Below are positions 4,344-22,224 of a stretch of DNA of 34,645 nt, piece after piece. Both the position numbers and the translations under genes were made by a program. Below the pieces are notes generated by a model. The model ran no database searches. It worked only from the letters and a program-made list of their open reading frames with translations, and had not been told where the DNA came from. The stretch comes from a virus, in the IMG/VR virus record IMGVR_UViG_3300049218_000422, positions 1 to 34,645 of that record, one strand, 5' to 3'. The stretch's first letter is position 1, and each line of letters opens with the position of its first letter.

Positions 4344-4594
4344 TCCGCGACCGGCTGAGGGTGGGGGTGGGGGAGTTGTTCCTGAAGATCGGAACGCGCC
4401 TCCTGGCTCCCGAGATCGAGCGCGAGGTCGCAGCCATCCCCGAAGCACCGCGCGACGTCGAGCGTCGCGAGGAGCACGTGGGCTTTACGCGCGAGGCCCT
4501 GCGACTGATCGAGCAGCCCTCCGGCGAACCCCGGGTTTCGCCAGACGAGGAGCCGGAGCTGCGCGGTAGCCTGCGCTCGGTGGGGCGCCGCTAA
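4340..4594 (+). CDS. Small charged protein with a repeat-derived C-terminal segment
   Basis: The 84-residue ORF begins at a GTG in a GTGA overlap with the previous gene. Residues 1-50 are amphipathic and charged (RDRLRVGVGELFLKIGTRLL, then several Glu/Arg heptads) and predict a helical protein without a membrane segment. Residues ~61-70 (GEPRVSPDE) are encoded by a near-perfect copy of the dyad repeat that is intergenic elsewhere, so the C-terminus may have been created or extended by that element. It sits directly before the portal gene. The function is unknown. Confidence 0.6.
   Translation: MIRDRLRVGVGELFLKIGTRLLAPEIEREVAAIPEAPRDVERREEHVGFTREALRLIEQPSGEPRVSPDEEPELRGSLRSVGRR
4523..4542. 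repeat. Dyad repeat copy R2 (inside a coding sequence)
   Basis: This copy has one mismatch (A to C at 4529) to the consensus GGCGAAACCCGGGTTTCGCC. It is followed by TAGCCT (4567) and TAACCT (4592) before the portal start, so it keeps the repeat, hexamer, gene order although an ORF reads through it. Confidence 0.8.
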
Positions 4595-17850: not shown

Positions 17851-17895
17851 ATGCTCTGTACAAAGGCGCGAATGAAAGGGTTGTCACGGTCATGA
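17851..17895 (+). CDS. 14-codon leader ORF coupled to the sheath gene
   Basis: ATG 17851 opens a 14-residue peptide, MLCTKARMKGLSRS, whose TGA overlaps the sheath ATG as ATGA. GGAGAGGG lies 11 nt upstream. The peptide is basic and unlikely to be functional itself. The arrangement suggests that translating the leader delivers ribosomes to the sheath start or tunes its output. Confidence 0.45.
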   Translation: MLCTKARMKGLSRS

Positions 17896-20555
17896 GCGCG
17901 TACATCAGAAGGTTCAACTTCGACCCTGGCAACGCAGTCCTCCTCAACATCGAGTCGATCAACGTTCTCGACCTGGACCCGCCCGCGGCGCTGCAGGGGA
18001 TCGGCTCCGGGACGGTGACTTGCGTGGGTGAGTACGAGGACGGTCCGTACAACTTCCCGCTCGAGGTCGACACGGCCGACAACCTGATGCGGCAGATGGG
18101 CGCCCTCGGCTACACGATCGGCGGGGTCCAGGCGAACAACGCCTCGGCCATCGCGCGCAAGGCCGACGGCGCGGGCGCCCCTGAGTACTGGAACGGCAAC
18201 GCCGTTGTCCAGCTGAACGGCAAGCAGTTCTCGCGCCTCATCGTCACGCGCGCCAACACGAGCGTGGGGTCAATCCAGCTCACCCCACTGCCCAGCGTCA
18301 CGTCCGCCACCAGCCAGCTCACCTACTCGCTCGCTACCGGCCAGGTGCTCTCGCTCGACGTCGGCGCGGGCGCCCAGAGCGCCACGTTCACCGGCGCGGT
18401 CGCGACCACCACGGGCAGCGGCGCGGCCTTCGGCTCCATCGCGGTCGGCAACCAGATCACCCTCGCGGTGGACGGCAAGGCCTCCTTCACCGTCACGTTC
18501 CAGGCCGGCGACACGACCATCGCCAACGTCGTCGCGCGGATCAACCAGTTTGCGGGCTTCACGTTCGCCAGCAACGCCGCGGGGCAGCTCGCGCTCTCCG
18601 GCGTGCAGGCGGGCACCGGCGGCCAAGTCCAGGTCGTCAGCGACAACACGAGCGGCACCACCATCACGCACCTCGGCCTGACCGTGGGCACGACGCTCGG
18701 CACGGGCAATGTCCTCAACATCGCGGCCGTGCAGCAGAGCGAGGTGGCCGCCGTCATTCAGGCGGCCGTCGCCAACACGCTGGTCCAGATCGACAGCCTG
18801 TCGCGCATCCGCATCTCCAACACCTCCCCGGGCACGGCCCCCTACGTCCAGATCAACGCCGCGCTCACGACGGCGCTGGGACTCGGGTTCCAGATCCCGA
18901 TCGGGGGACCGCCGCAAGCGGCTATCCCCGGCCAGACGATCGGTACCCAGCAGAACCAGGCCATCGTCGTCTCGTCCAACCAGACGTATACGCTCGCCAC
19001 CAACGACACCGTCACTCTCGGGTTCGACGCCTACCCGAACGTGATCGTCACGTTCCAGAGCACCGACAACACGGCGGCGCTCATCGTCACGCGCATCAAC
19101 CTGGCCTTTACGGCGGCGGGCCTTCCCAACATCGCATTCGCCGATGGGTCTTCGCGCATCTACCTGACAAGCGCCCTCCAGCAGACGACGGCGAGCAACG
19201 TGCGCGTTGTCGGCGCGAGCTCAGGCGCTGTCCTGGTGAAGCTCGGGCTGGTCGTGGGCACCGTCACGAGCCTCGGTCCGATCATCGGTCAGGTCCCGGC
19301 GGGCACCGTCGTCCAGGTGCCCGGCGCGAGCCAGACCAACGTCTTCGTCACGACGCAGACGGTTTACTTCAACGTCTCCGGGGTGCTCATCGGCGGCATC
19401 TCCACGGCGGGAGGAGGAGTGACGGTGACCCAGACGGGCCCGTACATCGTGCCGATCCGTCACGCCCTCGACGACGGCTCGGGGCTGAGCGCCACGGCGG
19501 GCGCCATCACGCAGTTCGCCAACTACCCGCCGGACGTCTTCAGCTTCTCGATCACCAACCTCTCCCCGACGACGGCGGCCCTAACGGAGACGCAGATCGA
19601 CGCGGCCTACGTTACGGCGCTGGCCTCGACGGTGGACGTCAACAGCATTGCCAAGCAGACGAACATCATTTTCTCCGCGCGCCAAAGCAACACGATCCGG
19701 TCGGCCTTGCGGACCAACGCCATTCAGGCGTCGGCCAACGGCTGCTACGGGCGGGTCGCGTGCGTGCGCCCGCCGCTCAACACGGACCGGTACACGGCCG
19801 TCTCGTTGGTGGCGCCGGGCGCCGGGGCGACCTCCGACCAGCGCACGATTTTCTGTTACATCGGCAGCAACGTCTTCGTGCCCGTCATCGGCACTCGCGG
19901 CATCGCGGGCAACCCGGTGGGCACCAGTTACACGGCCTTTACGGTGGACGGCAACGTGGACGTGGGCAGCGACTCGCTGATGGCGTCGATCCTGAGCCAG
20001 CTCCCGCCCGAGGAGAATCCCGGACAGGACACAGCCTTCGCGAGCGTCGTCAACGGGATCGAGAAGGGGGCCAACGTTCAAGGCTTCCAGATGAGCGACT
20101 ACATCAACTTCAAGGCTGCGGGCATCGCGGCGCTCCGCGTGGACGACGGCCAGGTGAGCTTCCAGAGCGGCGTCACCTCCGTCAACCCGCAGCTCTATCC
20201 GCAGCTCGCGCCCATCGCGCGGCGGCGCATGGCCGACTACATCCAGGACAGTCTCGCCATCGCGGGCAAGCCCTTCTCGAAAAAGATCAACACGTTCGTC
20301 CGGCGCAAGGCGTACGCGTCTGAGGTCAGGGCGTTCTTGGACGGCTTGCTGAGCGAGAAGAACCCCCAGTTCCAGCGCATTGCGGGGTACACGCTCGACT
20401 CCAAGACCGCCAACACTCAGGCCACCCTCGCCGCGGGCATGTTCCGTCTGCGCATCCGGGTCCAGACGCTCTCTTCACTCGACTCGATCGTGCTGGAGAC
20501 GACCATCGGAAACAACGTCAACACCGTCCAGCAAGTGCTGCCGCAAGCGGCTTGA
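17892..20555 (+). CDS. Contractile tail sheath protein with repeated surface domains
   Basis: At 887 residues it is far longer than typical sheaths of about 400-550. The N-terminal ~125 residues (with GTVTCVGEYEDGPYNFPLEV) and the C-terminal ~390 residues form the conserved sheath parts. The latter includes AYVTALASTVDVNSIAKQTN, SVVNGIEKGANVQGFQMSDY and a polymerising C-terminus (YTLDSKTANTQATLAAGMFR). Between them, residues ~125-500 hold three related Thr/Ala/Val-rich units, each with a pattern like IN-x-A-G...A-x-G-x-L-x-L followed by L-x-x-LGL, reminiscent of flagellar hook-associated IN repeats. These would project from the tail surface. Sheath contraction drives the tube through the envelope. 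Confidence 0.85.
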   Translation: MSAYIRRFNFDPGNAVLLNIESINVLDLDPPAALQGIGSGTVTCVGEYEDGPYNFPLEVDTADNLMRQMGALGYTIGGVQANNASAIARKADGAGAPEYWNGNAVVQLNGKQFSRLIVTRANTSVGSIQLTPLPSVTSATSQLTYSLATGQVLSLDVGAGAQSATFTGAVATTTGSGAAFGSIAVGNQITLAVDGKASFTVTFQAGDTTIANVVARINQFAGFTFASNAAGQLALSGVQAGTGGQVQVVSDNTSGTTITHLGLTVGTTLGTGNVLNIAAVQQSEVAAVIQAAVANTLVQIDSLSRIRISNTSPGTAPYVQINAALTTALGLGFQIPIGGPPQAAIPGQTIGTQQNQAIVVSSNQTYTLATNDTVTLGFDAYPNVIVTFQSTDNTAALIVTRINLAFTAAGLPNIAFADGSSRIYLTSALQQTTASNVRVVGASSGAVLVKLGLVVGTVTSLGPIIGQVPAGTVVQVPGASQTNVFVTTQTVYFNVSGVLIGGISTAGGGVTVTQTGPYIVPIRHALDDGSGLSATAGAITQFANYPPDVFSFSITNLSPTTAALTETQIDAAYVTALASTVDVNSIAKQTNIIFSARQSNTIRSALRTNAIQASANGCYGRVACVRPPLNTDRYTAVSLVAPGAGATSDQRTIFCYIGSNVFVPVIGTRGIAGNPVGTSYTAFTVDGNVDVGSDSLMASILSQLPPEENPGQDTAFASVVNGIEKGANVQGFQMSDYINFKAAGIAALRVDDGQVSFQSGVTSVNPQLYPQLAPIARRRMADYIQDSLAIAGKPFSKKINTFVRRKAYASEVRAFLDGLLSEKNPQFQRIAGYTLDSKTANTQATLAAGMFRLRIRVQTLSSLDSIVLETTIGNNVNTVQQVLPQAA

Positions 20556-20579: not shown

Positions 20580-21017
20580 ATGGTAGCGCAAAGGATAAAA
20601 GGCCAAGAAATTTCAATTTTGTTCAACCGGCGTGGCCAGTTGGAAGACACCCTGACGGACACGAGCGACTTCGAGTTCGAGCCCAAGATCGAGTTGAAGG
20701 AGGCCGGCTACCTCGGCGAGAAGAGCAACCGGCACGACGAGATCTTCAACGGGTGCAAGTTCTCCGGCACGCTCCACCTGCATTCGCAGCTCTGGTTCAA
20801 CTACCAAACCGCCATCATCCGCCGCGCCCAGCGGCTGGACCCGACGATCGTCTTCAACATTTCTGCGGTGATGCAGTTCCCCAGCGGCGATACGCCTGCG
20901 GTGCTGCTCTCGGACGTGCACTTCGGCCCCACTCCCCACGGCATTCGGGCGCGCGGCGATTACATGACCGTCAAGATCGAGGGCGCTTGCGACGACTTCA
21001 ACGTCACGCTGTCCTGA
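20580..21017 (+). CDS. Tail tube protein
   Basis: The 145-residue product follows the sheath by 24 nt with AAAAGGGA before the ATG. Length and order (sheath, tube, chaperones, tape measure) are those of contractile tails. The body shows the tube-type beta fold: FEFEPKIELKEAGYLGEKSN, then a helical segment, then FSGTLHLHSQLWFN, and a terminal DYMTVKIEGACDDFNVTLS. EKSN is the position where tube proteins carry an E-x-x-N/D turn. It polymerises into the inner tube and ends directly at the convergent minus-strand gene. Confidence 0.85.
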   Translation: MVAQRIKGQEISILFNRRGQLEDTLTDTSDFEFEPKIELKEAGYLGEKSNRHDEIFNGCKFSGTLHLHSQLWFNYQTAIIRRAQRLDPTIVFNISAVMQFPSGDTPAVLLSDVHFGPTPHGIRARGDYMTVKIEGACDDFNVTLS

Positions 21018-21299
21018 TCAAGCCTTGTCCTTCCGAGTGATGAAGGCGCGCGCCTCATCGCTCAGGTCCTCCAGTCGGATTCCCGCGCCGTAAGGCGGGA
21101 CACCATCCTTCTGGAGGATGAGGGGCCGGCGCATCTCGAACCGAAGGCAGGCGTACATCGCCATCTCTCGTATCTCGCTCGGCGAGAAGTGAAGTTGGTG
21201 GATGAGGTTCTCCAGGTGGTCGACGAACATCCGGTACTGGGAGTCGTTCCGGTATCTCTCGTCCTGCTTGGTCAGTGGGCACGTCATGGGCGACGTCAT
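21018..21299 (-). CDS. Small conserved-type phage protein, minus strand
   Basis: The 93-residue product is from ATG 21299; an ATG at 21287 is an alternative. Its stop abuts the tube stop with no gap. The core YRNDSQYRMFVDHLENLIHQ, then LHFSPSEIREMAMYACLRFE, resembles a small helical protein seen in many phages (pattern S/T-P-x-E-x-R-E-A). The C-terminus is polar (RLEDLSDEARAFITRKDKA). The function of the family is unknown to me. It interrupts the + strand tail operon between tube and chaperones. Confidence 0.65.
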   Translation of the reverse strand: MTSPMTCPLTKQDERYRNDSQYRMFVDHLENLIHQLHFSPSEIREMAMYACLRFEMRRPLILQKDGVPPYGAGIRLEDLSDEARAFITRKDKA

Positions 21300-21331: not shown

Positions 21332-21928
21332 TTGAACAAGAAGCACGTCGTCGAGGAGTTACAGGAAGAGGACGCAGGTGGAGTGCTGGAGGAAGAGAGC
21401 GGGAACGAGGCGGAAATTCCCGCGTGGGCGCGAACGGCCATCCCGCAGGGGATGAAGATCCCCCCGGGCAAACAACTGAGCTTTTTGCGGTTCAAGAGCG
21501 AGTGGACCGACGCGCCCGAGAAGGGCAATGCGACCACGTTCCGGCGCAAGAAGCCCGGCACCGAAGGTGACGCCGTCGCCATCATGGAGGACTACGAGGC
21601 GCTGTCGCGGGTGCTGGTCACGTGGCCGCTGACGGTGGCCGAGGAGCGCCTGGCGCTCAAGCGCGCCCGGGGCGAGGTGGGCCGGGCGTCCGACGAGCTG
21701 GCGATGCAGATGATCCGTGGCGTGGATGGCAAGCGCATCGACTGGACGGGAGAGTGGGCCAAGAACGCCGACGAGCTCGAGCCGGCGGAGCGGCTCTGGA
21801 ACGAGATCGGGCCGAAGTGCCGGCCCCTGGTCATCAACTTGTACCGGCAACTCCACACGCTCAAGGCTGAGGAGCTGGTCGATTTTTTCGTCGACTGTCT
21901 CGTTGTCGCTCGCCCGACGGGTGGCTAG
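21332..21928 (+). CDS. Tail assembly chaperone, short form (G-like)
   Basis: The 198-residue product starts at TTG with GGAGGTGG a few nt upstream. It lies between tube and tape measure, the fixed place of tail assembly chaperones. The N-terminus is acidic and disordered (EELQEEDAGGVLEEESGNEA). A helical domain follows (AEERLALKRARGEVGRASDE, RPLVINLYRQLHTLKAEELV). Near the end, at residues 185-186, lies a slippery heptamer allowing a -1 shift into the next frame. The chaperone is expected to bind the tape measure during tail assembly and not to be part of the virion. Confidence 0.75.
   Translation: MNKKHVVEELQEEDAGGVLEEESGNEAEIPAWARTAIPQGMKIPPGKQLSFLRFKSEWTDAPEKGNATTFRRKKPGTEGDAVAIMEDYEALSRVLVTWPLTVAEERLALKRARGEVGRASDELAMQMIRGVDGKRIDWTGEWAKNADELEPAERLWNEIGPKCRPLVINLYRQLHTLKAEELVDFFVDCLVVARPTGG
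21883..21889 (+). promoter_or_regulatory. -1 programmed frameshift slippery site
   Basis: T-TTT-TTC matches X-XXY-YYZ exactly in the reading frame of the chaperone gene (codons GAT TTT TTC). After a -1 slip the frame is open with no stop through 22224. Confidence 0.75.
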
Positions 21929-22224
21929 GCCCGGGGGGTGAGCCGACGGAGGACGCCCGCGACGCGATGCTCGCAGGAGTCACCGTCTGGACCGACAACG
22001 AGGCGCACAACGCGCTCTGGCACTTGCTCGTCGAAGTGGACGCGGGTGAGGTCCTGGCCAACCGTGACAAGCAGCTTGTGCAGTTGGCTCGTTACGCGCA
22101 CGCCGGACAGCCCGGTGAGTGCATGGGTTGGGGGGACGTGGAGATCTCCGAGTTCAAGGCCAAGTACCGGGCGCTCTCCGAGGTTCTGGCCGAGGAGGGG
22201 CCGAGCGGGGCGTTCGAGCAGTGA
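21889..22224 (+). CDS. Tail assembly chaperone frameshift extension (T-like)
   Basis: Read in the -1 frame from the slippery site, this adds 26 codons (RRLSRCRSPDGWLGPGGEPT, then EDARDA) and continues into the 85-residue ORF beginning at Met 21967, giving a fusion of about 297 residues. The extension is helical and Glu-rich (EAHNALWHLLVEVDAGEVLA, FKAKYRALSEVLAEE), as expected for the T part of a GT protein. Independent starts are poor: ATG 21967 has only a distant GGAGGA. The extension ends before repeat R5. Confidence 0.7.
   Translation, partial: RRLSRCRSPDGWLGPGGEPTEDARDAMLAGVTVWTDNEAHNALWHLLVEVDAGEVLANRDKQLVQLARYAHAGQPGECMGWGDVEISEFKAKYRALSEVLAEEGPSGAFEQ

Follow-up and report, generated by a model that had tools for sequence, protein, structure and literature searches.

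The window, that is, the whole stretch of 34,645 nucleotides that was analysed, comes from a bacterial virus represented by metagenomic sequence alone and carries a pair of overlapping open reading frames (ORFs) among its tail genes. The features on which the interpretation of this pair depends are listed below.

17892-20555, plus strand: tail sheath (phrog_23 tail sheath, E 3.2e-7), also present in relatives
20580-21017, plus strand: probable tail tube, from its position after the sheath; conserved in relatives, without a family match
21332-21928, plus strand: upstream ORF resembling the G protein of tail assembly chaperones (TAC), zero frame, 198 aa, with a TTG start behind GGAGG and a TAG stop at 21926-21928
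21869-21874, plus strand: SD-like GAGGAG, a possible stimulator, 8 nt upstream of the heptamer
21883-21889, plus strand: slippery heptamer T_TTT_TTC in zero-frame phase; read directly, compared among relatives and with its chance computed
21889-22224, plus strand: -1 frame extension with a putative T-like domain, 111 aa after the shift; the fusion would have about 297 aa
22264-24135, plus strand: tape measure protein (phrog_167 tape measure, E 7.3e-5), also present in relatives

The chaperone pair is placed between the tube and tape measure genes, as the first-pass annotation had proposed. Sheath and tape measure are recognised by PHROG matches, while the ORF between them has none and is labelled a tail tube by position only, because it follows the sheath.

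Direct reading around the slip site gives ...GAGGAGCTGGTC GAT TTT TTC GTC..., where ORF 21332-21928 has the codons GAT TTT TTC at 21881-21889, with a run of six T at 21883-21888 followed by C at 21889. Position 21883 is a third codon position, which gives the heptamer the phase X_XXY_YYZ. The -1 frame, which from 21889 reads RRLSRCRSPDGWLGPGGEPTEDARDAM..., contains 26 codons up to Met 21967 and is then open to the stop at 22224. The first-pass annotation had placed the heptamer in the correct phase of the 198-residue gene and described a -1 frame open for 26 codons and then through an 85-residue ORF; the translation agrees, and both the stated coordinates and the FF-RRL junction predicted there were right. 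In nine long genes of the window (4299 codon positions), T_TTT_TTC is the sole in-phase X_XXY_YYZ site with both triplets made of A or T, and six consecutive T occur just twice on the plus strand in 34.6 kb. With the protein sequence and codon usage taken as fixed, a heptamer of A/T type would fall in phase within the overlap with a probability of about 0.01, which for the window by itself is moderate evidence; the relatives are decisive.

When the upstream protein, the sheath and the tape measure were used as queries, 25 further distinct viral pairs emerged. A genome scan with the single upstream protein as query gave no match, and one with the alignment A1 as query matched one MAG (Methylocystis, L048), so that the set of 27 pairs comprises the window, 25 other viral contigs and this MAG. 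The pair on the Methylocystis contig (L048:5001-5707) contains T_TTT_TTC and is accompanied by sheath, tube and tape measure genes; the contig is likely a prophage or a misbinned phage. A tblastn search of annotated phages with the chaperone and with the sheath returned no match. Pairwise identity among the 26 viral sequences has a median of 36% and a maximum of 64%.

The first-pass annotation had called for a comparison of the heptamer and its phase in related phages, and this comparison supports it: T_TTT_TTN is found in phase at the same place in 25 of the 27 homologous pairs, with two variants in the remainder. A distance of 24-36 nt usually separates the heptamer from the zero-frame stop (84 in L036 and 66 in L038). 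The P-site codon is TTT in all 27 sequences and the base preceding it is T in 26, even where the residue that it helps to encode is Thr, Ala, Arg or Tyr. At nearly all nearby third positions T is in the minority, GAC and TTC are preferred in most of the 27 genomes, and in the structural genes of the window GAT accounts for 7% of Asp codons and TTT for 13% of Phe codons. The joint log10 probability of the conserved T-TTT under local codon usage is about -40, a rough guide given that the sequences are taken as independent. Since T-TTT is kept despite changes of residue and despite these codon preferences, selection acts on the DNA letters and not on the protein alone.

With regard to the two variants, the G_TTT_TTT of L004 still allows full re-pairing of the A-site tRNA. 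The other, T_TTT_CTA in L029 (4530-4545), is one synonymous change if TTA is taken as the starting codon, and could be explained by faulty sequencing, by weaker slippage in the P site or by genuine loss. Loss of the heptamer with both ORFs kept, which the first-pass annotation had named as evidence against its reading, was thus seen in this one pair and in none of the other 26, too little to overturn the frameshift.

From the site, its phase, its conservation and the linked ORFs we infer, with very high confidence, a -1 ribosomal slip at T_TTT_TTC that yields a G-like protein and a GT-like fusion, and the virus probably makes two versions of its tail assembly chaperone by this route. ORF 21332-21928 would encode the short, G-like form. 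A minority of ribosomes would slip back one base on T_TTT_TTC, the P-site tRNA-Phe moving from TTT to re-pair on TTT and the A-site tRNA-Phe from TTC to re-pair on TTT, and would then pass the stop at 21926 to produce a GT-like fusion of roughly 297 aa with a predicted helical T-like domain. The lambda system suggests roles for the two parts: G may attach to the tape measure protein, and T may bring in tube subunits.

The best surviving alternative, itself very improbable, is that the downstream ORF is translated on its own, as a separate gene, from the ATG at 21967, or reached by termination-reinitiation near the 21926 stop. Such an ATG does exist, with GGAGG about 14 nt upstream and an ORF of 85 aa behind it, but the SD spacing is poor. 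Furthermore, the first -1-frame ATG of most relatives is found at codon 39-94 after the heptamer, within the conserved domain, and four relatives have no ATG at all in the extension, one of them (L006) being truncated. The earliest -1-frame ATGs of the family are those at codon 11 in L005, codon 26 in the window (Met 21967) and codon 31 in L027. The -1 domain has the conserved motifs GWLxPG and DPD upstream of any ATG, and the residues that precede Met 21967 in the window align with the conserved GW and DPD motifs. An independent start is therefore unlikely, as the conserved domain usually lacks a preceding ATG and these motifs come before Met 21967; a separate gene would also leave the conserved T-TTT codons without a reason. 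The first-pass annotation had described the 85-residue ORF as having no good start of its own and had named independent downstream starts in homologues as the other adverse observation; nearly all homologues have no ATG ahead of the conserved domain.

Slippage of RNA polymerase on the T run, which would give the fusion by transcriptional frameshifting, is less probable still. The homopolymer of six T (eight in L027) speaks for it, yet six T is a short run for a transcriptional frameshift, and the phase is always X_XXY_YYZ. L011, L013 and L015, phages at a greater distance that were recovered through their related sheaths, have dissimilar upstream ORFs, each with a -1 partner ORF, and by coordinates their in-phase heptamers are T_TTT_TTC, G_GGA_AAC (L013) or G_GGT_TTT (L015). 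L013 and L015 thus lack a long homopolymer but still have a heptamer in phase and a -1 pair, and because other classical heptamers fill the same role, ribosomal slippage is favoured over polymerase slippage on a T run. That the heptamer is fortuitous and the two ORFs result from gene breakage or misassembly has a negligible probability: the P value of the window alone is not extreme, but the same arrangement recurs in 27 distinct sequences, and conservation already refutes this explanation.

As for elements that may assist ribosomal slippage, the internal SD-like GAGGAG might aid the slip, and most relatives have similar purine-rich words 8-12 nt upstream of the heptamer. The mean anti-SD duplex energy of the 27 sequences was matched by 1 of 300 synonymous resamplings, uncorrected for phylogeny; this signal is suggestive at most, because common descent links the sequences and conservation also extends to the Glu-Glu codons. 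Downstream of the heptamer no RNA structure is conserved, the 26-sequence set showing no clear excess (mean z -0.2 vs -0.1 in controls). The window's own downstream hairpin is stable (z -2.6 in a 50-nt frame, z -1.7 for the 81-nt fold); a stimulatory role was rejected, since its stem begins about 18 nt past the heptamer and the 26 sequences show no excess. It can be proposed, tentatively and with considerable doubt, that this unnamed TAC family uses T_TTT_TTN stimulated by an internal SD-like element 8 nt upstream rather than by downstream RNA structure, and that occasional members (L029) shift without a canonical heptamer. The upstream element would recall the -1 frameshift of E. coli dnaX, which, in contrast, also uses downstream structure, none being conserved here.

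The AlphaFold model of the upstream protein (pLDDT 88.9) has as its two best PDB matches YqbN of B. subtilis (3klu) and the HK97 tail assembly chaperone (2ob9), with non-significant Foldseek E values of 0.29 and 0.53, respectively. Re-alignment gave Z 6.7 for 3klu and Z 5.0 for 2ob9, modest scores at 6-7% identity that place both among the best solved structures for this model; Z 2 was reached by just six of 945 chains. The VIA-align comparison covered four listed entries, and families outside this list may still fit. The two PDB matches are compatible with a TAC fold but do not establish one. For the T-like half the model is weak (pLDDT 71.6, pTM 0.43).

Neither half matched Pfam or PHROGs, the Pfam scan of the downstream half being that of the window's own sequence, and no homologue matched convincingly. 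For this reason the pair is classified by its arrangement and assigned to no named sequence family: it follows the well-known G/GT organisation of lambda and represents a new family of this kind, as yet unnamed, in a contractile-tail phage. In lambda, gpG and gpGT are made at a ratio of 30:1 and have distinct binding roles, and the shift is widely conserved in long-tailed phages (PMC5009743), a conservation for which that article cites Xu, Hendrix and Duda (2004). Annotated TAC frameshifts also form the training set of PRFect (PMC10274946). As in lambda, the present pair consists of ORFs that overlap and are flanked by the tube and tape measure genes; the predicted -1 shift falls at an X_XXY_YYZ site towards the end of the upstream ORF, and the second ORF, in the -1 frame, has no conserved start of its own. 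Unlike in lambda, no TAC family of Pfam or PHROGs matches the sequence of the pair, the phage has a contractile tail with a sheath, and the heptamer is T_TTT_TTN, whereas the slip site of lambda is G-rich. The first-pass annotation had regarded the locus as established family knowledge applied to a new sequence. The known picture of the G/GT frameshift is unchanged; the users of a -1 shift gain a wide, unannotated family of contractile-tail phages, one slip site is now available in 27 natural variants, and annotation pipelines could join the two ORFs.

Between the tube and the chaperone genes, a minus-strand ORF of 93 aa (21018-21299) has no family match and a codon-position GC of 0.60/0.39/0.83, like that of a real gene. 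Other minus-strand ORFs occupy the same gap in L003, L007, L029 and L031, and the gap may be an insertion spot for cargo genes.

The 18-base palindrome GCGAAACCCGGGTTTCGC is found six times with no more than one mismatch (at 4524, 8079, 16894, 22230, 24150 and 29026), compared with 0.07 expected. Several copies directly follow stop codons, for instance behind the chaperone pair and the tape measure gene, and the palindrome is possibly a terminator-like or regulatory repeat.
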